The notes beneath the pieces are model-generated. The model was not told the DNA's origin. It searched no databases and saw nothing but the letters and a program-made list of their open reading frames with translations. The position numbers and the translations under genes were made by a program. DNA of 64,000 nt from assembly GCF_003008425.1 (NCBI RefSeq), contig NZ_PXOQ01000007.1:954419-1018418 (forward strand). Direction: 5' to 3'. Below, one piece after another: positions 33,517 to 61,304 of this stretch. Position 1 is the stretch's first letter, and the number at the start of each line of letters is the position of its first letter. The stretch is from Aurantibacter aestuarii (GTDB taxonomy: Bacteria; Bacteroidota; Bacteroidia; Flavobacteriales; Flavobacteriaceae).

Positions 33517-33786
33517 TTATTTTCTTAATCCTAACTCTTTAACAATAGCACGATATCTTAAGATATCTTTCTTAGTTAAATAATCTAGTAAAGCACGACG
33601 CTTACCTACCAATTTAACAAGAGAACGCTCTGTGTTATAATCTTTATGATTTTTCTTTAAATGCTCTGTTAAATGGTTAATTCTGTGAGTAAATAAAGCA
33701 ATTTGTCCTTCTGCAGAACCTGTGTTTGTAGCTTTCTCTCCGTGTTTTTCGAAAAGTTTAGCTTTTTCTTCTTTAGATAAATACAT
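33517..33786 (-). CDS. rpsO: 30S ribosomal protein uS15
   Basis: 89 residues from the ATG at 33786 (MYLSKEEKAKLF), the usual length. An extension to 33843 is rejected because the predicted promoter at 33841-33848 lies at its 5' edge. The family motif GSAEGQIALFTHRINHLTEHLKKNHKDY is followed by LVGKRRALLDYL. It binds 16S rRNA early in 30S assembly. Confidence 0.98.
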   Translation of the reverse strand: MYLSKEEKAKLFEKHGEKATNTGSAEGQIALFTHRINHLTEHLKKNHKDYNTERSLVKLVGKRRALLDYLTKKDILRYRAIVKELGLRK

Positions 33787-33840
33787 TCTAATATTATTGT
33801 AAATGATTGTTATGTACACGAAAGTGTTTCTTTCGAGCTG

Positions 33841-33848
33841 CAAATATA
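33841..33848 (-). promoter_or_regulatory. Predicted -7 box of the rpsO promoter
   Basis: On the minus strand TATATTTG matches TAnnTTTG. A near-match TTTC lies 17 nt upstream. The leader would be about 50 nt. Confidence 0.6.
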
Positions 33849-51551: not shown

Positions 51552-52841
51552 TTATAAGCCAAAAGCAGATTTAACCTGCTCTACATAATCTAATTTTTCC
51601 CATGTAAAGGTCTCTACAGTTTCGGTAACTGTTTGTCCCATTGGGTTAGAAAATGTAACTTCTTTAGTTTCTGGTGTGCGTCCCATGTGTCCATAGGCTG
51701 CGGTGTCAGAATATATTGGCGTTCTTAGTTTTAAACGTTGTTCTATAAAGTAAGGACGCATATCAAATATAGATTCTACAATTTTACTTATTTCACCATC
51801 TGTTTTATTAACGGTAGCAGTACCATAAGTTTCTACATTAATACTGGTTGGTTTTGCAACACCAATTGCGTAACTTACCTGCACTAATACTTCTTTACAT
51901 AAGCCTGCTGCTACTAAATTTTTTGCAATATGTCTTGTTGCATATGCACCAGAGCGGTCTACTTTACTTGGATCTTTACCAGAAAATGCACCACCTCCAT
52001 GGGCACCTTTACCACCATAAGTGTCTACTATAATTTTTCGACCCGTTAAACCAGTATCGCCGTGTGGTCCACCAATAACAAAAACACCTGTTGGATTAAT
52101 GTGGTAGGTAATTTGGTCTGTAAATAATTTTTGAATATGCGCTGGTAAATTCTCTACAACACGAGGAATTAAAATGTTTTTAATGTCAAAATTAATTTTT
52201 TCTAACATTAACTCATTGGCTTCCTCTCGATCTTCTTTAGAATTAGATTTTGGCTTTATAAAGTCATCATGTTGGGTAGATAATACAATTGCATCAATAC
52301 GTTGTGGTACATTATCATCACTATACTCAATAGTAACCTGAGACTTAGCATCTGGACGTAAATACTTTATCTCATTATTTTCTCGTCTAATTGCTGCCAA
52401 TTCCTTTAAAAGTCTATGAGATAACTCTAAGGCTAAAGGCATATAGTTTTCGGTTTCATCAGTAGCATAACCAAACATCATACCTTGGTCTCCAGCACCT
52501 TGATCTTCTGGGTTACCTCGGTCTACACCTTGATTAATATCTGGAGACTGCTCATGAATGGCAGAAAGCACACCACAAGAGCTTCCATCAAACATATAGG
52601 CTCCTTTGGTGTAGCCAATTTTATTAATAACGTCACGTGCAATTTGCTGTACGTCTAAATAGGTGTCCGATTTTACTTCACCAGCAAGTACGACCTGTCC
52701 GGTTGTTACTAAAGTTTCGCAAGCAACTTTAGAGTTTTTATCGAATGCTAAAAAATGGTCAATTAAAGCATCACTAATTTGATCGGCTATTTTATCTGGA
52801 TGACCTTCAGAAACACTTTCGGATGTAAATAAATATGACAT
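51552..52841 (-). CDS. metK: S-adenosylmethionine synthetase
   Basis: 429 residues. The ATP site is [31 protein letters not shown], the P-loop [18 protein letters not shown] and a C-terminal [10 protein letters not shown] follow. It forms SAM from methionine and ATP. It is a single gene under its own promoter and a SAM-II-like riboswitch in a leader of about 120 nt, so its product should repress it. Confidence 0.97.
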
Positions 52842-52907
52842 AATTGTAAACTTAATATTGTTTGTAATTAAAAAAATTAAGATTGCAATTGCTAGAGGAG
52901 TAGTTTA

Positions 52908-52958
52908 CTGCTTTAGCATTTTTTTAAAGAGGTTGCAATCAGATCAAATCATTCCTCT
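52908..52958 (-). ncRNA. SAM-II-like riboswitch in the metK leader
   Basis: On the minus strand: P1 5' AGAGG (52958-52954), loop TGATTTGATCTGATTGCAA, P1 3' CCTCT (52932-52928), an A-rich linker, then ATGCTAAAGCAG. TGATTT...TTGCAA in the loop and GCTAAA after P1 are the conserved SAM-II (metA motif) positions. CTG in the loop can pair with CAG after GCTAAA to close the pseudoknot. The predicted transcript starts about 5 nt before P1, so the aptamer is at the very 5' end. Confidence 0.75.
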
Positions 52959-52969
52959 GTAATAGATTG

Positions 52970-53001
52970 CAAATATAGAAGCTTTAAAATACATAACCAA
53001 A
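52970..53001 (-). promoter_or_regulatory. Promoter of metK
   Basis: On the minus strand TTTG (53001-52998), a 20-nt spacer and TATATTTG (52977-52970) match the phylum consensus exactly. The start falls near 52963, just before the riboswitch. Confidence 0.8.
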
Positions 53002-53081
53002 AGATTCAATCTTAAAGAAATCAAAAAAAAGTATATGTAAAATTATCATATTCGTAAAAGTTTGCGTTTTATTAAAAATAA

Positions 53082-53113
53082 TTTGGTCAGGTAATGCTAT
53101 TGTTACACTTTTG
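53082..53113 (+). promoter_or_regulatory. Predicted promoter of the ilv operon
   Basis: TTTG (53082-53085), a 20-nt spacer and CACTTTTG (53106-53113) fit with one mismatch. The leader peptide ATG lies 11 nt after the -7 box. Confidence 0.45.
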
Positions 53114-53123
53114 TCTAACACAT

Positions 53124-53180
53124 ATGAAAAACAACAACATCATTTTTATCATTTCTATTATTGCTTTTGCAAGGCGATAA
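53124..53180 (+). CDS. ilv leader peptide (attenuator)
   Basis: The peptide is MKNNNIIFIISIIAFARR: 18 residues, six of them Ile, arranged as three pairs. It ends 25 nt before a strong terminator and 76 nt before ilvE, the first gene of the isoleucine/valine operon. This is the layout of transcription attenuation by ribosome stalling. AAGGAA at 53179-53184, directly at the stop codon, can pair with TTCCTT at 53211-53216 in the terminator. A ribosome stalled at Ile codons leaves it free (read-through); a ribosome at the stop covers it (termination). Confidence 0.82.
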   Translation: MKNNNIIFIISIIAFARR

Positions 53181-53205
53181 GGAATGGTATATATAACATT
53201 AAGTT

Positions 53206-53236
53206 AAGCCTTCCTTTTTTGGAAGGCTTTTTTTTT
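53206..53236 (+). terminator. Attenuator terminator before ilvE
   Basis: AAGCCTTCC (53206-53214) pairs perfectly with GGAAGGCTT (53221-53229) around six T and is followed by a long T-run. It lies in the leader, between the leader peptide and the first structural gene. Confidence 0.9.
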
Positions 53237-53256
53237 GAATTTAATTAAGGTAAATT

Positions 53257-54147
53257 ATGTATTACAACGAGAGCAGTGTCGTATTCCATAACGGAGCATT
53301 TAAAAACCCAAAAGAGGTTTTGTTAGAAACTTACGGACAAACATTACATTATGGTAATGGTGTTTTTGAAGGAGTTAGAGCTTATAAAACAAAAAACGGA
53401 ACTCGAATTTTTAAGGCAGAAGACCATTATAAGCGCTTAAAATATGGTGCAGAGGTCATGGGTATTCCTTTTAATTATTCAGTAGAAGAACTGGTAACTT
53501 TAACCTACCAATTATTAGTAAAAAATAATCTGGAAGACGCTTATATCAGACCATTAATTACAGCTGGAGCCGATATGAGTTTGCGGACTTCTACAGAAGC
53601 CAATCTAACCATTCAATGTTGGGCTTGGGGAAAATATATGGGCGATAAATTACTACGTGTAAAAACCTCTTCTTTTGAAAGACCAAACCCTAAATCTTGT
53701 TTTGTTGATGCTAAAATTACAGGTCACTATACCAATTCAATCTTAGCTACTAACGAAGCTAAATCTGCTGGGTTTGATGAAGCTTTACTTTTAGACATGC
53801 ATGGAAACGTAGCAGAATGTTCTGGTGCTAATGTATTTATGGAAAAAGATGGGAAACTATATACACCTAAAAAAGGAAATATAATGCCTGGTATTACGCG
53901 TCAAGTCATTATGCAAATTTGTAAAGACGAAGGTATTCCGGTAGAAGAAAAACTATTTACCATAGATGAATTTAAAAATGCAGACGCTGCCTTTTTTACT
54001 GGAACTGCGGCAGAAGTAGTTGGGTTAGAATCTATAGACAATTATAAATTCCCTAAAGATTTTGAAACCACTTTCGGTGCAAAATTAATGAAGCTTTATC
54101 AGGATGAGGTTTTAGAACAACGCCAAAAACAACCACAACATGCTTAA
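53257..54147 (+). CDS. ilvE: Branched-chain amino acid aminotransferase
   Basis: 296 residues, fold type IV PLP enzyme. [14 protein letters not shown] is near the N-terminus. The PLP lysine is in [15 protein letters not shown], and [20 protein letters not shown] and [13 protein letters not shown] follow. It does the last step of Ile, Val and Leu synthesis. First gene of ilvE-D-B-N-C-A, overlapping ilvD by 8 nt. Confidence 0.96.
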
Positions 54148-55813
54148 TAAATATAGCAAAACAGTAACACAAGACGATACGCAACCTGCAGCTCAAGCCA
54201 TGTTGCACGCTATTGGTTTAACTAAAGAAGATTTTAAGAAACCCATTATTGGCATTGCAAGCACAGGTTACGAAGGTAATCCGTGTAATATGCACTTAAA
54301 TGATTTAGCTAAACTGGTTAAACAAGGCACCAAAAAAAAGGATATTGTAGGTCTTATATTTAATACTATTGGCGTTAGCGATGGAATTTCTATGGGAACA
54401 CCAGGAATGCGGTATTCATTACCTTCAAGAGATGTTATTGCAGATTCCATGGAGACTGTAGTGCAGGCGATGAGTTACGATGGTTTAGTTACTGTAGTAG
54501 GTTGCGATAAAAATATGCCAGGTGCGTTAATTGCAATGATTCGTCTAAATAGACCTAGTATTTTGGTGTATGGTGGAACAATTGATTCTGGTTGTCATAA
54601 CGGACAAAAACTAGATGTAGTTTCTGCTTTTGAGGCTTGGGGAAGCAAAGTTGCTGGAACCATGAAAGAAGACGAATATCAAAGCATTGTAGAAAAGGCA
54701 TGTCCTGGAGCTGGAGCTTGTGGTGGTATGTATACTGCGAATACTATGGCGTCTTCTATAGAGGCTTTAGGAATGGCTTTACCATTTAACTCTTCTAATC
54801 CTGCTTTAAGTAATGCTAAACAAGAAGAAAGTGTTAGAGCTGGAGAAGCATTACGTTTATTGTTAGAAAAAGACATAAAGCCATCAGATATTATTACACG
54901 AAAATCTCTTGAAAATGCTGTTAGGTTAGTAACAATTCTTGGCGGATCAACAAATGCAGTATTACATTTTTTGGCTATAGCTAGAGCTGCTAATATAGAT
55001 TTTACATTAAAGGATTTTCAAAAGATTAGCGATACAACTCCATTTTTAGCAGATTTAAAACCTAGCGGTAAATATTTAATGGAAGATGTTCATGCGGTTG
55101 GCGGGATTCCTGCAGTAATGAAATACCTTTTAAGTAAAGGGTTATTACACGGAGATTGTTTAACCGTAACAGGTAAAACCGTAGCCGAAAATTTAGCTGA
55201 AGTCAATGATTTAACTTCTGGTCAAGATGTTATTAAGCCTGTAGAAAAACCAATTAAAATCTCTGGACATTTAAGAATGTTATATGGTAATTTAGCTCAA
55301 GAAGGTAGCGTAGCTAAAATAACAGGAAAAGAAGGATTAAAATTTTCTGGAAAAGCAAAAGTTTTTGAAGGTGAATATGCTGCAAATGATGGTATTCGTG
55401 ACGGAAAGGTAACTAAAGGTGATGTTGTAGTTATTCGTTACGAAGGTCCAAAAGGCGGACCCGGAATGCCAGAAATGTTAAAGCCTACTGCTGCTATTAT
55501 GGGAGCAGGTTTAGGTAAAGATGTCGCTTTAATTACAGACGGAAGATTTTCAGGTGGAACGCACGGTTTTGTTGTTGGACATATCACACCAGAAGCTCAA
55601 GAAGGAGGAACCATTGCTTTAGTAAAAGATGGCGATGTTATTACTATAGATGCCGAAACAAATTCTATTATTCTTGAAGTTTCGGAGGAAGAATTAAATA
55701 AAAGAAAAGCGTCTTGGAAAGCTCCAGAACTAAAGTTTAAGCGTGGTGTTTTGTACAAATATGCAAAAACAGTTTCGTCTGCGTCTAAAGGTTGTGTAAC
55801 TGATGAATTTTAA
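54140..55813 (+). CDS. ilvD: Dihydroxy-acid dehydratase
   Basis: 557 residues. Iron-sulfur cysteines are in [19 protein letters not shown] and [16 protein letters not shown]. The C-terminal [22 protein letters not shown] signature is present. It dehydrates dihydroxy acids to the 2-oxo acids of Val and Ile. It overlaps ilvE by 8 nt and is followed by ilvB after 27 nt. Confidence 0.97.
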
Positions 55814-55840
55814 AAATGAAAGCCTTTTAAAATATAAAAT

Positions 55841-57553
55841 ATGGCAAATCAAAAAAACATAAAAACACAAAGATTATCTGGAGCAGAAGCTATTATTAAA
55901 TGTCTTTTAGCTGAAGGTGTAGATACCATTTTTGGTTATCCTGGTGGCGCAATTATGCCACTTTACGATAAATTATACGGTTATCAAAATGAGCTTAAAC
56001 ACGTTTTAACGCGTCACGAGCAAGGAGCAACTCATGCAGCACAAGGTTATGCACGTATTTCAAATAAAGTTGGAGTGGTTACAGCAACATCTGGTCCAGG
56101 AGCTACTAATTTAGTAACAGGTTTAGCAGATGCGCAAATAGATTCTACTCCAATGGTATGTATTACAGGTCAAGTAGCATCCCATTTGTTAGGGACAGAT
56201 GCATTTCAAGAAACCGATATTGTTGGTATTTCTACTCCAGTAACTAAATGGAATCACCAAATAACAAAAGCAGAAGATATTCCTTCGGTTTTAGCTAAAG
56301 CATTTTATATCGCCAAAAGTGGTCGTCCAGGTCCTGTTTTAATAGATATAACTAAAGATGCTCAGTTTGAAGAATTTGATTTTTTATATAAAAAATGTAA
56401 TCACATTAGAAGTTATGTGCCAGTTCCAGAAACCAAATCTGGCTCGGTAAAAGCTGCTGCAGAGCTAATAAATAACGCAAAAAAACCATTAATAGTTTGG
56501 GGACAAGGTGTTATTTTAGGAGAAGCTGAAGCAGAATTTAAAGCCGTAATCGAAAAAGCAGGAATTCCTTCGGCTTGGACTATTTTAGGTGCTTCGGCAT
56601 TAGAAACATCTCATAATCTAAATGTTGGAATGGTTGGTATGCATGGTAATTATGCACCAAACAAATTAACTAACGAGTGCGATGTTTTAATTGCTGTGGG
56701 TATGCGTTTTGACGATAGAGTGACGGGCGATTTAAGCCGATATGCTAAACAGGCTAAAGTTATTCATTTTGAAATTGATTCTGCAGAAGTGAATAAAAAC
56801 GTAAAGGCAGATGTGGCAGTTTTAGGTAATGTAAAAGATACTCTAACTCAATTATTACCAGAATTAAGGGCAACAAATCATGACGCTTGGTTACAAGAAT
56901 TTAAAGATTTATATCAAATTGAATTAGAGAAAGTCATTAACGACGACTTAAAGCCAAAAGTAGCTGAAATTACCATGGCGGAAGTTATTGAGCAAATCAA
57001 TATACAAACCAATGCTAAAGCGGCTATTGTGAGCGATGTTGGTCAACACCAAATGGTGGCTTGTCGTTATGCTAAGTTTAAAGAAACCAAAAGTAATATT
57101 ACTTCTGGCGGATTAGGTACTATGGGTTTTGCATTGCCAGCAGCAATTGGTGCTAAAATAGCAGAACCAAATCGAGAAGTCGTAGCTATTATTGGAGATG
57201 GTGGTTACCAAATGACCATTCAGGAGTTAGGAACCATTTTTCAAACTAAAACGCCAGTTAAAATTGTGGTGTTAAATAACGAGTTTTTAGGAATGGTAAG
57301 ACAGTGGCAGCAATTGTTTTTTGACAAACGCTATGCTTCAACAGAAATGGTAAATCCAAACTTTGTTAAAATTGCCGAAGGTTATTCCATTGAAGCTAAA
57401 AAAGTAGTTAAGCGAGAAGATTTAGCACAAGCTGTAGAAGATATGATAAAAAGTAAAAACGCTTACTTTCTAGAAGTTATGGTAGGTAAAGAGAATAATG
57501 TTTTCCCAATGATTCCTACAGGAGCAAGTGTTTCAGAAATCCGTTTAGAGTAA
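55841..57553 (+). CDS. ilvB: Acetolactate synthase large subunit
   Basis: 570 residues. The thiamine-diphosphate enzyme has GYPGGAIMPLYD with the catalytic Glu in TRHEQGATHAAQGYAR. The cofactor site is IIGDGGYQMTIQELGT. It forms acetolactate and acetohydroxybutyrate. Its regulatory subunit follows after 53 nt, a gap that carries a small inverted repeat. Confidence 0.97.
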   Translation: MANQKNIKTQRLSGAEAIIKCLLAEGVDTIFGYPGGAIMPLYDKLYGYQNELKHVLTRHEQGATHAAQGYARISNKVGVVTATSGPGATNLVTGLADAQIDSTPMVCITGQVASHLLGTDAFQETDIVGISTPVTKWNHQITKAEDIPSVLAKAFYIAKSGRPGPVLIDITKDAQFEEFDFLYKKCNHIRSYVPVPETKSGSVKAAAELINNAKKPLIVWGQGVILGEAEAEFKAVIEKAGIPSAWTILGASALETSHNLNVGMVGMHGNYAPNKLTNECDVLIAVGMRFDDRVTGDLSRYAKQAKVIHFEIDSAEVNKNVKADVAVLGNVKDTLTQLLPELRATNHDAWLQEFKDLYQIELEKVINDDLKPKVAEITMAEVIEQINIQTNAKAAIVSDVGQHQMVACRYAKFKETKSNITSGGLGTMGFALPAAIGAKIAEPNREVVAIIGDGGYQMTIQELGTIFQTKTPVKIVVLNNEFLGMVRQWQQLFFDKRYASTEMVNPNFVKIAEGYSIEAKKVVKREDLAQAVEDMIKSKNAYFLEVMVGKENNVFPMIPTGASVSEIRLE

Positions 57554-57564
57554 ATGATAAAGCT

Positions 57565-57590
57565 GTCTGGTCGAGTGCAGTCGAGGAGAC
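57565..57590. repeat. Imperfect palindrome between ilvB and ilvN
   Basis: GTCT-GG-TCGA (57565-57574) and TCGA-GG-AGAC (57581-57590) pair around GTGCAG with a GG/GG internal mismatch. There is no T-run. It resembles dispersed GTCGAG-type palindromes and has no assigned function. Confidence 0.5.
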
Positions 57591-57606
57591 ATAGATACAT
57601 AAAACA

Positions 57607-58134
57607 ATGAGTAAAGAAATAACATATACAGTATCAATTTATACCGAAAATAACATTGGATTATTAAACCGAGTTTCGGCTATTTTTCAAAGAAGACATA
57701 TTAATATTGAGAGTATAAATTCTTCAATTTCTGAAATAGAAAACGTCACCAAGTGGACTATTTTAGTTATAGTGACCGAAGAGCAAATGAAAAAGGTTAT
57801 TGGTCAAATTGAAAAACAAGTAGAGGTGATTAGAGCCTATTATCATACCGATGATGAAATTATTTATCAGGAATCATGCTTGTTTAAAATGAAATCTGAT
57901 TTATTGTTCGAAGCACCTCAAATTCAAAATCTTATAAAAGACCATAATGCCCGGTTAGTCACTGTAAATAAAGACTTTTTTGTCATTGAAAAATCGGGTA
58001 GAACAGAAGAAATAGAAACATTATACCAAACATTAAAAACCTACGGAATTTCTCAATTTACACGTGCAGGACGCATTGCAGTATCTAAAGAACGTATGGA
58101 AATTTCAAAACTGTTGAGTTTATTCAACGCCTAA
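57607..58134 (+). CDS. ilvN: Acetolactate synthase small subunit
   Basis: 175 residues. An N-terminal ACT domain ([21 protein letters not shown] and [15 protein letters not shown]) is followed by a C-terminal ALS_ss_C domain ending [16 protein letters not shown]. It binds valine and controls ilvB activity. It is 53 nt after ilvB and 11 nt before ilvC. Confidence 0.95.
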
Positions 58135-58145
58135 AAAATATAATC

Positions 58146-59621
58146 ATGGCAAATTATTTTAATACATTATCCTTAAGTCAAAAATTAGAGCAATTATCTA
58201 AATGTCGTTTTATGGGACAAGACGAGTTTAAAGATGGTGTATCAGTTTTAAAAGACAAAAAAATCGTAATTATTGGTTGTGGAGCGCAAGGTTTAAACCA
58301 AGGTTTAAATATGCGTGATTCTGGTTTAGATATTTCTTATGCTTTAAGAGATGCAGCTATTTCAGAAAAACGTCAGTCATACAAAAATGCAACCGAAAAT
58401 AACTTCAACGTAGGTAATTACGAAACTTTAATTCCAACAGCAGATTTGGTATTAAACCTAACGCCAGATAAGCAACATGGTAATGTGGTTAAAACCATTA
58501 TGCCACTAATGAAAAAAGGAGCAACCTTATCGTACTCTCACGGTTTTAATATTGTTGAAGAAGGCGAAGAAATTCGTGAAGATTTAACGGTAATCATGGT
58601 AGCGCCTAAGTGTCCTGGAAGTGAAGTTCGAGAAGAATATAAGCGAGGATTTGGAGTGCCAACATTAATTGCAGTTCATCCAGAAAATGATCCAGAACAA
58701 AAAGGTTGGGAACAAGCTAAGGCTTATGCTGTTGCAACTGGTGGACATAAAGCTGGGGTTTTAGAATCGTCTTTTGTTGCTGAGGTAAAAAGTGATTTAA
58801 TGGGCGAACAAACCATTTTATGTGGTGTGTTACAAACAGCTTCTATTTTATTATTCGATAAAATGGTAGAGAAAGGAGCAGACCAAGCGTATGCGTCTAA
58901 ATTAATACAATACGGTTGGGAAACTATTACCGAAGCATTAAAGCATGGTGGAATTACAACCATGATGGATCGATTAAATAACCCTTCAAAAATTAAAGCA
59001 TTTCAGTTAGCCGAAGAATTAAAGGATTTATTAAAACCTTTATTTAATAAGCATATGGATGATATCATGTCTGGTCATTTCTCTAAAACTATGATGGAAG
59101 ACTGGGCTAATGACGATAAGAATCTATTAACTTGGAGAGCTTTAACCGAAAATACAGCTTTTGAAAAATCTACAGCGACAGAAGAAACAATAAATGAACA
59201 AGAGTATTTTAATCATGGTGTTATTATGATTGCTTTTGTAAAAGCTGGTGTAGAATTAGCGTTCGATACCATGGTGGCTTCTGGTATTGTTGAAGAATCT
59301 GCGTATTACGAATCACTTCACGAATTACCATTAATAGCAAATACCGTAGCACGTAAAAAGTTATACGAAATGAACCGCGTTATTTCTGATACCGCTGAAT
59401 ATGGTTGCTATCTATTTGATCATGCCTGTAAACCATTATTAGAAGATTTTATGGATTCTGTAGAATTAAATGTTATTGGCGAATCATTTTCGACATCAAA
59501 TGATGTGGATAATTTAGAACTAATTGCTGTAAACGATGCTATAAGAAATCATCCTATTGAGAAAATAGGAAAAATCTTACGTGCTGCTATGACAGCTATG
59601 AAAGCAATAAAAACAGCATAA
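58146..59621 (+). CDS. ilvC: Ketol-acid reductoisomerase, class II
   Basis: 491 residues, the long class II form with a duplicated knotted domain (class I is about 330). NADPH site: [20 protein letters not shown] (about 38-57). Acidic metal-binding residues lie in [13 protein letters not shown] and later in the duplicated C-terminal domain. It isomerises and reduces acetolactate to dihydroxyisovalerate. Confidence 0.96.
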
Positions 59622-59630
59622 GAATTTATT

Positions 59631-60896
59631 ATGAGTTTAAAACAAACTTACTTACCTCAATTAAAAGATGTAGAAACTGCAGCACAACGTTTAAATGGCA
59701 TTGCAGTTTTAACACCTTTAATGGAAAACCACTTATACTCTAAAACTTTTGAGGCTTCCATTTATTTTAAACGTGAAGATTTACAACCTGTAAGATCGTA
59801 TAAAATTCGTGGCGCTTATAATAAAATGGCGTCTTTAGATACTCATTTAAGTCAAAATGGAATTGTTTGTGCAAGTGCAGGAAATCATGCGCAAGGTGTG
59901 GCTTTATCATGTAAGTTGTTAAAAATTCATGGCACTATTTATATGCCAACACCAACACCAAATCAAAAAATAAATCAGGTTAAAATGTTTGGTGAAGACT
60001 TTGTAGATGTGGTTTTGGTGGGCGATACTTATGATGATGCTTACGATGCTGCCATTATAGAATGTGAGCGTTTAAAGAAGGCGTTTATCCACCCGTTTGA
60101 TGATAAAAAAGTTATTGAAGGTCAGGCAACCGTAGGATTAGAGATAATTGACCAAGCAACAATACATCCCATTCATTATGTAATTGTTCCAGTTGGTGGT
60201 GGCGGATTATCTTCTGGATTAGCATCGGTGTTTCATTTGTTATCTCCAAATACAAAAATTATTGGTGTAGAACCCCAAGGTGCGCCATCTATGTCTACAT
60301 CAATTCAAAATAATAAAAACACAACAATTGAGGATATAGATAGTTTTGTAGATGGTGCTGCGGTTAAACGTGTAGGCGATTTAAATTTTGAAATTTGCAA
60401 GTCTTTTCTAGATCAAGTTATAACCGTTCCAGAAGGCGAAATTTGTCAAACTATTTTAGATCTATATAACAACGAAGCAATAGTAGTAGAGCCAGCAGGT
60501 GCATTAAGTATTACCGCTTTAAATCATTTAAAAGATGAAATTAAAAGTAAAAATGTAGTTTGCGTGGTTAGTGGAAGTAATAACGATATCGTTAGAACTG
60601 CCGAAATTAAGGAACGGGCTTTATTACAATCTAATCTTAAGCATTATTTTATTGTGAAATTTCCTCAACGTGCAGGTGCTTTAAAAGAATTTGTGGTTAA
60701 TATTTTAGGTCCAAATGATGATATCACACACTTTGAGTACACTAAGAAAACAAATCGGATTAATGGTTCTGCAGTAGTTGGTATTGAATTAAAATTTGCT
60801 GAAGATTTTGAGCCATTAGTGCAAAAAATGAAATTACGTAAGTTTTATGGCGATTACTTAAATAACAAACCCGACTTGTTTGATTTTTTAGTGTGA
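59631..60896 (+). CDS. ilvA: Threonine dehydratase, biosynthetic-type
   Basis: 421 residues. The PLP lysine is in YFKREDLQPVRSYKIRGA (about 46-63). VCASAGNHAQGVALSC, the phosphate loop VPVGGGGLSSGLASV and a single C-terminal ACT-like segment (HYFIVKFPQRAGALKEFV) follow. It makes 2-oxobutanoate, the entry to isoleucine. It lacks the second ACT repeat of the long enterobacterial form. Last gene of the ilv operon. Confidence 0.93.
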   Translation: MSLKQTYLPQLKDVETAAQRLNGIAVLTPLMENHLYSKTFEASIYFKREDLQPVRSYKIRGAYNKMASLDTHLSQNGIVCASAGNHAQGVALSCKLLKIHGTIYMPTPTPNQKINQVKMFGEDFVDVVLVGDTYDDAYDAAIIECERLKKAFIHPFDDKKVIEGQATVGLEIIDQATIHPIHYVIVPVGGGGLSSGLASVFHLLSPNTKIIGVEPQGAPSMSTSIQNNKNTTIEDIDSFVDGAAVKRVGDLNFEICKSFLDQVITVPEGEICQTILDLYNNEAIVVEPAGALSITALNHLKDEIKSKNVVCVVSGSNNDIVRTAEIKERALLQSNLKHYFIVKFPQRAGALKEFVVNILGPNDDITHFEYTKKTNRINGSAVVGIELKFAEDFEPLVQKMKLRKFYGDYLNNKPDLFDFLV

Positions 60897-61025: not shown

Positions 61026-61056
61026 CACTCAATAAAGTTCAAAAACTTACTGAAAT

Positions 61057-61177
61057 GTTATCAAGAAAGGCTGAGGGAATAGACCCGGTGAAGCCTTAGC
61101 AACCCTTTACACATTGTAATGAAGGTGCTAAATTCTACTTAAACTTTTATTCATTAATACTGGTTTGGATAGATAAC
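61057..61177 (+). ncRNA. SAM-I riboswitch (S-box)
   Basis: P1 is GTTATC (61057-61062) with GATAAC (61172-61177). Between them are the conserved segments AAGAAAGGCTGAGGGAATAG, CCGGTGAAGCCTTAGCAACC and AAGGTGCTAAATTC in the right order. It binds SAM and would shut off metY, metX and thrA. A downstream stem GTAATTGT (61183-61190) with ACAATTAC (61197-61204) follows at once and is the likely expression platform, though its T-run is weak. No gene lies between 60897 and 61304. Confidence 0.95.
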
Positions 61178-61304
61178 TTAATGTAATTGTTCATCTACAA
61201 TTACTCATTTTCTTATAACATTTTTCTAAAAGGTACGCTTCAGCATTGAGGCTTATTTGACTTTTTGTTTTAATTTTTTATTTAACTCAAAAAAACTTAG
61301 AAAA

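Follow-up and report, generated by a model that had tools for sequence, protein, structure and literature searches.

A putative isoleucine leader-peptide attenuator upstream of ilvEDBNCA in Aurantibacter aestuarii, and related leaders, some in series, in other Bacteroidia

Amino acid control has been little studied in Bacteroidota, a phylum in which translation is largely initiated without a Shine-Dalgarno sequence. The ilvEDBNCA operon of Aurantibacter aestuarii is preceded by a short isoleucine (Ile)-rich open reading frame (ORF) and a hairpin, which raises the question whether this leader controls transcription of the operon, and by which codons. The locus lies in a stretch of 64,000 nucleotides (nt) of the forward strand of NZ_PXOQ01000007.1 (positions 954419-1018418), here called the window, and all coordinates given are window positions. 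An original prediction made from the sequence alone held that an Ile-codon leader peptide controls termination before the ilv operon. The anatomy of the leader, comparison with relatives and covariation support this reading, and the element is very probably a classic ribosome-mediated transcription attenuator. Three mutually exclusive helices, conservation of the leader, and compensatory changes in two of the helices (1:2 and 3:4) were found by computation.

The leader peptide MKNNNIIFIISIIAFARR contains six Ile among its 18 residues, arranged as three Ile-Ile pairs, and its ORF has no leucine (Leu) or valine (Val) codons. Re-reading of the sequence gave the reading frame, coordinates and composition exactly as predicted. 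The UAA stop codon (53178-53180) is overlapped by AAGGAA (53179-53184). The terminator predicted behind the leader was also found: a scan of positions 52500-53900 returned a single site, at 53206-53229, with 9 pairs (five of them G-C), a loop of 6 nt and a T tract, compared to a mean of 0.5 in shuffled sequences, and its stem ends 27 nt before ilvE. The leader RNA (53120-53240) had a folding z-score of -5.1, and none of 200 shuffles was equally stable. The free RNA folded into helix 1:2 (53147-53189) and the terminator. When the 5' part that a stalled ribosome would occupy was omitted and the chain was ended at 53219, so that the 3' arm of the terminator was absent, the fold switched from 1:2 to 2:3. 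In this fold (-8.1 kcal/mol) AAGGAA pairs with UUCCUU (53211-53216), and the helix is extended by pairing of GGU (53186-53188) with GCC (53208-53210); it was obtained in truncated folds from starts 53150-53165 and 53175. The original prediction had paired both AAGGAA with TTCCTT and AAGGC with GCCTT. Each pairing is possible, but they are mutually exclusive alternatives and not parts of one helix. Pairing of AAGGC (53171-53175) with GCCUU (53208-53212) was the best fold from start 53170 only, with an equal energy of -8.1 kcal/mol, and it was demoted to an alternative because the AAGGAA..GGU helix was seen from more starts and is conserved in relatives. When the 3' arm was present, all ten truncated folds retained the terminator (alone -14.6 kcal/mol; 2:3 fold -8.1), which would be expected if the choice between 2:3 and 3:4 is a matter of timing. 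Four of the features by which an attenuator is recognized were found: a leader ORF rich in codons for the product of the operon, a terminator between leader and first gene, a helix 2:3 that excludes the terminator, and a protector helix 1:2.

With these helices, stalling, read-through and the direction of the response at the ilv leader would be as follows. Transcription would start about 6 nt before the AUG, and a ribosome would load at once without a Shine-Dalgarno sequence. When charged tRNA-Ile is plentiful, the ribosome would reach the UAA codon and, as this codon overlaps region 2, would cover region 2 while finishing the peptide, upon which 3:4 would form and transcription would terminate before ilvE. 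Under a shortage of charged tRNA-Ile, the ribosome would stall at the Ile pairs, chiefly at those in 53148-53162, and would thereby cover strand 1 and leave region 2 free; 2:3 would form and block the terminator, and ilvEDBNCA would be transcribed. In the absence of translation, 1:2 would hold region 2 and the terminator would form. The features are listed in Table 1; NCBIfam was run on the six window genes and on two relative loci, L174 and L187.

Table 1. Features of the ilv leader region of A. aestuarii (window positions)
Feature	Position	Strand	Basis
Predicted Bacteroidota-type promoter	53082..53113	+	-7 box by box scan, -33 element by eye; predicted
Leader ORF MKNNNIIFIISIIAFARR, ending in stop	53124..53180	+	Sequence and ORF list; Ile-rich leaders at the matching place in relatives; translation predicted
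Helix 1:2 (protector)	53147..53189	+	5' side over Ile codons 53148-53162, 3' side 53171-53189; folds, type A covariation, own-versus-swapped pairing
Helix 2:3 (antiterminator)	53179..53216	+	53179-53184 with 53211-53216 and 53186-53188 with 53208-53210; folds, conservation, own-versus-swapped pairing
Helix 3:4 (intrinsic terminator)	53206..53229	+	Followed by T tract 53230-53236; scan, folds, covariation
ilvE (branched-chain aminotransferase), first gene of the operon	53257..54147	+	NCBIfam TIGR01122 above cut-off
ilvD, ilvB, ilvN, ilvC, ilvA, same orientation	54140..60896	+	ORFs, NCBIfam

The leader could instead act on translation or through a DNA-binding regulator, for example of the Lrp type, with hairpins that only stabilize the mRNA or tune basal expression. 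We regard this as highly improbable, since a T tract lies directly 3' of the hairpin, region 2 shares bases with the stop codon and is able to pair with the 5' arm of the terminator, and just 27 nt separate the terminator from ilvE in the window. What speaks for it is that relatives with ilvD as first gene have a conserved stretch between attenuator and ilvD, present with or without the attenuator, where a second layer of control may exist. This stretch, seen in many of the loci displayed from L014-L142 (e.g., L028, L029, L039, and L045) at about -200 to -1 relative to ilvD, consists of TTGAACATCATA, then CTGATAATCAG between T/A-rich arms, then GAATTTAA and then TAATTTCGAA. It is absent from the window, no Rfam match overlapped it in the 20 loci scanned, and it is possibly a regulator site or a second promoter.

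The near-leaderless start in the proposed mechanism follows from the predicted promoter. A box scan identified CACTTTTG at 53106-53113, with one mismatch to TAnnTTTG, as the -7 box, and TTTG at 53082-53085 was recognized by eye as the -33 element. If the box is placed at -12 to -5, as described in a passage on Flavobacterium psychrophilum (PMC9723704), transcription is predicted to start near 53118, and the leader ATG would follow a 5' untranslated region (UTR) of about 6 nt. An in-frame upstream ATG that would give MLLLHFCLTHMKNNN... was set aside, because it lies 5' of the predicted -7 box, so that a transcript started there would not include it. Among 77 loci with a leader, 66 have TAnnTTTG with at most one mismatch ending 3-14 nt 5' of the ATG of the first leader, versus 20% of shuffled upstream sequences. 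A point to be set against our reading is that leaderless mRNAs make up just 5.5% in F. psychrophilum, according to the same source (PMC9723704), so that a near-leaderless start is not the norm.

To what extent the device is shared was addressed in relatives. IlvD was found at an E value up to 1e-180 in 151 of 199 genomes of the same family. Upstream DNA was covered for 130 of these 151 (30 loci including that of the window, and 100 stretches) and for genome G014 and some further loci; L047 was too short. After removal of duplicates 137 usable Bacteroidia ilvD/ilvE loci were available. Under a rule that was fixed only after relatives had been seen, and that selected ATG-initiated leaders of at least 14 residues with at least three Ile, Ile+Leu+Val of at least five and at least 30%, ending near a terminator of -10 kcal/mol or lower, within 500 nt, these 137 loci yielded 85 leader-terminator pairs in 70 loci. 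The reverse strand yielded four pairs and 411 dinucleotide shuffles one. Ile-rich leaders are found upstream of ilv genes in many relatives; a comparison of this kind had been proposed with the original prediction. That prediction had also named a case that would speak against it, an ilv terminator that is kept while the Ile-run leader is lost. None was found among the 115 terminators of -10 kcal/mol or lower present within 500 nt upstream of ilvD/ilvE (140 loci, including two duplicates). An Ile/Val/Leu-rich ATG leader accompanied 92 of them, and of the 23 without a recorded leader of this sort only a duplicate entry of the window terminator, L050 and L059 were judged by eye to belong to the two ilv terminator types. 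Both L050 and L059 have an Ile/Val/Leu-rich leader with a TTG or GTG start.

These numbers bear on a simpler explanation, according to which the hairpin constitutively terminates transcription in the leader or marks where some other transcript ends, next to an ORF that is Ile-rich by chance, and no switching takes place. Ile codons are frequent in AT-rich DNA and intrinsic terminators are common. Moreover, by the strict rule the device is present in 64 and absent from 64 of the 128 same-family loci (L003, L004, L006, and L007 excluded), and no clear leader was seen on reading ten loci lacking the device, one same-family ilvE locus and two Hymenobacter loci. Absence from half of the same-family loci counts against our reading as well. 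The 85 pairs found against four and one in the controls, the covariation of helices 1:2 and 3:4, and the presence in the same genome of Trp, His, and Phe/Tyr leaders before trpE, hisG, and pheA (both described below) nevertheless make the constitutive terminator very unlikely.

Two types of element prevail in the relatives. Type A, to which the window element belongs, has a GCCTTCC..GGAAGGC terminator and a leader such as MKKQILNIISIIVIVIISQG, and type B has a GCCTGTATC..GATACAGGC terminator and a leader such as MKLRNLTIIICVIINSV. The 54 type A and 34 type B elements were picked by terminator motif and an Ile+Leu+Val content of at least 30%, so that their composition alone is no proof of enrichment. 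The type A leaders, for which Ile+Leu+Val content was one of the selection criteria, have a median of six Ile (54 leaders). A GATAC-like antiterminator motif begins within the stop codon in 18 of the 34 type B leaders, and Fulvivirga marina has a variant of the leader device.

Covariation was analyzed in alignment A1, which contained the window element together with 49 of the 54 candidate relatives (L072, L082, L111, L135, and L141 excluded by eye), and alignment A2, comprising 34 of 36 elements (two L141 copies excluded). In type A, the terminator helix 3:4 was paired in 96.9% of the cells and showed 15 two-sided changes (shuffled mean 2.7, none of 500 shuffles as high, at most nine in slid versions). 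Helix 1:2 was paired in 83.9% of the cells, with 17 two-sided changes (shuffled mean 6.8, none of 500 as high), and its paired cells and covariation score were above those of all slid versions. In type B, helix 1:2 showed 39 two-sided changes (shuffled mean 17.4, none of 500 as high, at most 12 in slid versions). Helix 2:3 was paired in 87.3% of the cells in type A and in 88.8% in type B, where 9 of 500 shuffles reached its covariation score. Pairing of own versus swapped partners, calculated for 95 elements, gave sums of -1529 versus -1087 for 1:2 (standard deviation 28; none of 5000 permutations as good, and within types 0 for A, 0 for B, and 4 for the others of 5000), and of -805.7 versus -631.5 for 2:3 (standard deviation 19.6).

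Several of these results weigh against the proposed switch and concern mostly helix 2:3. Its covariation in type A was no higher than in shuffles, and the version slid by -1 scored slightly higher. Within types, 17 (A), 60 (B), and 56 (others) of 5000 permutations paired as well as the own 2:3 partners, which outdid the average swap within their type in only 24 of 54 type A and 16 of 34 type B elements, and region 2 of type A pairs with type B arms almost as well as with type A arms. As this contrast within types is small, the pooled 2:3 figure largely reflects differences between types. The number of two-sided changes in type A helix 1:2 was also matched by some slid versions, and kinship among the sequences inflates both the covariation and the swap statistics. 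For the predicted helix 2:3, conservation and geometry carry more weight than covariation. Of the compensatory changes expected in terminator and antiterminator, those in the terminator are evident; the antiterminator is conserved and only weakly covarying.

The original prediction further stated that control is specific to isoleucine. This holds for the codons of the window leader, but most relatives mix Ile and Val: only two of the 54 type A leaders, including that of the window, lack both Val and Leu, and three lack Val. Sensing of Ile only is plausible for the window leader but would be a local and unusual trait, as nearly all type A relatives also hold Val or Leu codons. No match to the leuA family TIGR00973 was found in this genome at an E value up to 0.001, and a Leu leader before leuA was consequently dropped as a candidate. 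The lack of such a match agrees with the missing Leu codons in the leader, but proves nothing. With ilvEDBNCA present and no TIGR00973 match, the strain may be a leucine auxotroph.

That the conserved feature consists of Ile/Val codons also argues against a metabolite- or tRNA-binding riboswitch (T-box-like) in place of a translated leader. No Rfam family reached its gathering score in 53000-53300. Among the weak likenesses below cut-off that could be taken in favor of a riboswitch, the best was to the Phe operon leader, at 33.9 bits against a gathering score of 55, and this family is in fact a translated leader. We consider a riboswitch extremely unlikely. Riboswitches do lie elsewhere in the window. 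A SAM-II riboswitch (RF01726, 52903-52963, reverse strand) lies before metK, a gene named by its ORF sequence, and points away from the ilv promoter, and a SAM (S box) riboswitch (61055-61179, forward strand) precedes a metY-metX-like operon (named by eye) that apparently continues into thrA at the end of the window. By coordinate arithmetic the thrA frame lies directly behind metX in this riboswitch-led operon, and a Thr leader before thrA, for which no separate search was made, was set aside. An S15-Flavobacteria ribosomal protein leader (RF03161) is present at 33784-33848 on the reverse strand.

Leaders for other amino acids are present in the genome of A. aestuarii. A model of type A scored 81.6 bits on the window element, which is a training sequence, and had as its second match (E 0.027, not significant alone) the leader MNTIKNTYFNYYYFFSPLKEEDVCV followed by a terminator directly before pheA (L144). 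The gene was identified by the Pfam PDT family, and MNTIKNTYFNYYYFFSPLKEEDVCV is a Phe/Tyr leader; the other eight of nine inspected matches looked by eye like gene-end terminators. Family searches located trpE (L160) and hisG (L159), which are preceded by a Trp leader (MKNIFLNNWWWNFRN) and a His leader (MYNNNLHHHHFLTGYQAR), respectively, each followed by a terminator. All three leaders match the amino acid of their own operon.

Models R1 and R2 were used to scan 395 genomes of the class with strict filters. R1 had matches in 31 genomes (E up to 0.001) and R2 in 11 (E up to 1e-4), A. aestuarii included in both. A leader ORF was found at the match in 24 of 29 R1 loci of relatives (the element at L182 is that of training sequence L049), and 12 of these 24 precede ilvE or ilvD, one ilvN and one ilvA. 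Six others are Thr/Ile leaders before aspartokinase, two are Phe/Tyr leaders before pheA and one is a His leader before hisG. Pfam was run on L164, L165, L173, L174, L185, L187, L190, and L191 and on the own pheA and trpE; other aspartokinases were called by sequence likeness. The remaining one of the 24, at L187, is a possible Met/Cys leader, MKTNFFHTTTMMNSMMCCALS, with Met-Met and Cys-Cys, followed by a terminator and located before a nitrite/sulfite reductase gene. No leader ORF was found by the rule at five R1 matches (L169, L172, L176, L178, and L181), of which L172, L176, and L178 still precede ilv genes. The class-wide model was built from Ile-rich leaders, which favors Ile-rich matches. 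As the ilv-only model also finds leaders of thrA-type, pheA, hisG, and nitrite/sulfite reductase genes, a shared RNA scaffold is possible.

In 17 of the 77 leader loci two or three leaders stand in series, and 16 of these have a type A followed by a type B element. L141 has three leaders before ilvE, namely a type A element and, behind it, two nearly identical elements of a third kind that look recently duplicated. By the stricter rule, 14 of the 137 loci have at least two leaders. Types A and B in series before ilvE are found in Gelidibacter maritimus and G. gilvus, and the class-wide scans showed adjoining R1 and R2 matches, with R1 upstream, in five further genomes (G489, G320, G464, G550, and G384), in three of which leader peptides could be read for both steps (L193, L197, and L200). 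Only 7 of 18 second or third leaders have a TAnnTTTG box within 40 nt, at scattered distances, compared to 49% of shuffled first-leader upstream sequences. As these boxes are no more frequent than in shuffles, the first promoter appears to serve all leaders of a series. A second leader seemingly without its own promoter would be reached only by transcription past the first, forming a multiplicative gate.

These observations suggest a broader picture, to which we give about even chances. Attenuation through near-leaderless ORFs would be a class-wide layer of control in Bacteroidia, covering Ile/Val, Thr/Ile, Phe/Tyr, Trp, His, and perhaps Met/Cys, partly on one scaffold with swapped control codons, and several lineages would run serial ilv attenuators, type A-like upstream in each case seen, as a multiplicative gate. 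With one leader peptide per amino acid, seen across families, this compact set of switches can be tested directly in Bacteroidota, and the serial ilv attenuators form a natural experiment on whether a response becomes sharper when like sensors are stacked.

Comparable systems are known from other bacteria. The ilvGMEDA and ilvBN operons of enterobacteria have attenuators with the leaders ilvL and ivbL. The window element resembles these, as well as the Rfam families Phe_leader and Thr_leader, in its short ORF with codons for the product, its three competing hairpins and a terminator before the first gene. It differs in scoring below the Rfam gathering score, in leaving no room for a Shine-Dalgarno sequence by the predicted start and in having Ile codons only. 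Rfam gathering scores were likewise not reached at the own trpE, pheA, and hisG loci and four other loci, and no Rfam leader family was found in the 20 ilv loci scanned. A 2010 survey of attenuation across bacteria by Lopatovskaya and coworkers may contain Bacteroidetes cases. According to a passage of another paper of that year, leader peptides had been unknown outside Proteobacteria and Actinobacteria before Firmicutes were added (PMC2965389). Actinobacterial amino acid leaders and the upstream ORF of Corynebacterium ilvBNC share with the window element a leader ORF before ilv genes, in another phylum (PMC1262725, PMC10272879).

The original prediction had called such switches little described in Bacteroidota, which stands in part only, as a structured trp leader and papers of 2020 and 2021 already point to leader-peptide attenuation there. 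Bacteroid-trp (RF01692) appears in a table by Weinberg et al. (2010) among the likely cis-regulatory motifs of Bacteroidetes (PMC2864571), and its structure has been likened in a passage elsewhere to the E. coli trp leader (PMC6414381). Like the window element it is a leader of a Bacteroidetes operon, but it precedes the trp operon, and neither the window element nor the leader locus of trpE in A. aestuarii reached its gathering score. In the 5' UTRs of Bacteroides thetaiotaomicron, small ORFs resembling leader peptides have been noted in a transcriptome map, the example given being a hypothetical gene; ilv and isoleucine are absent from the main text (PMC7366714). For F. psychrophilum, passages of the report describe strong indications of attenuation by leader peptides ahead of amino acid operons, with conserved 5' elements at pheA and hisG, and mention no tandem arrangement; the term ilv does not occur in its main text, supplements aside (PMC9723704). 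No paper on an ilv leader of Bacteroidota was found by title or abstract start in the open-licence literature.

The ilv attenuator is a further case of a known kind, and attenuation in F. psychrophilum has already been reported in general terms. Of interest are the serial arrangement and the wide extent, and the tandem ilv arrangement is the most novel part. The two signals of the tandem attenuators of Salmonella mgtCBR differ, whereas the tandem ilv leaders of the relatives are both Ile/Val-rich. The mgtCBR leader resembles the tandem ilv loci in having two short ORFs in one leader, before different genes (PMC3641672).
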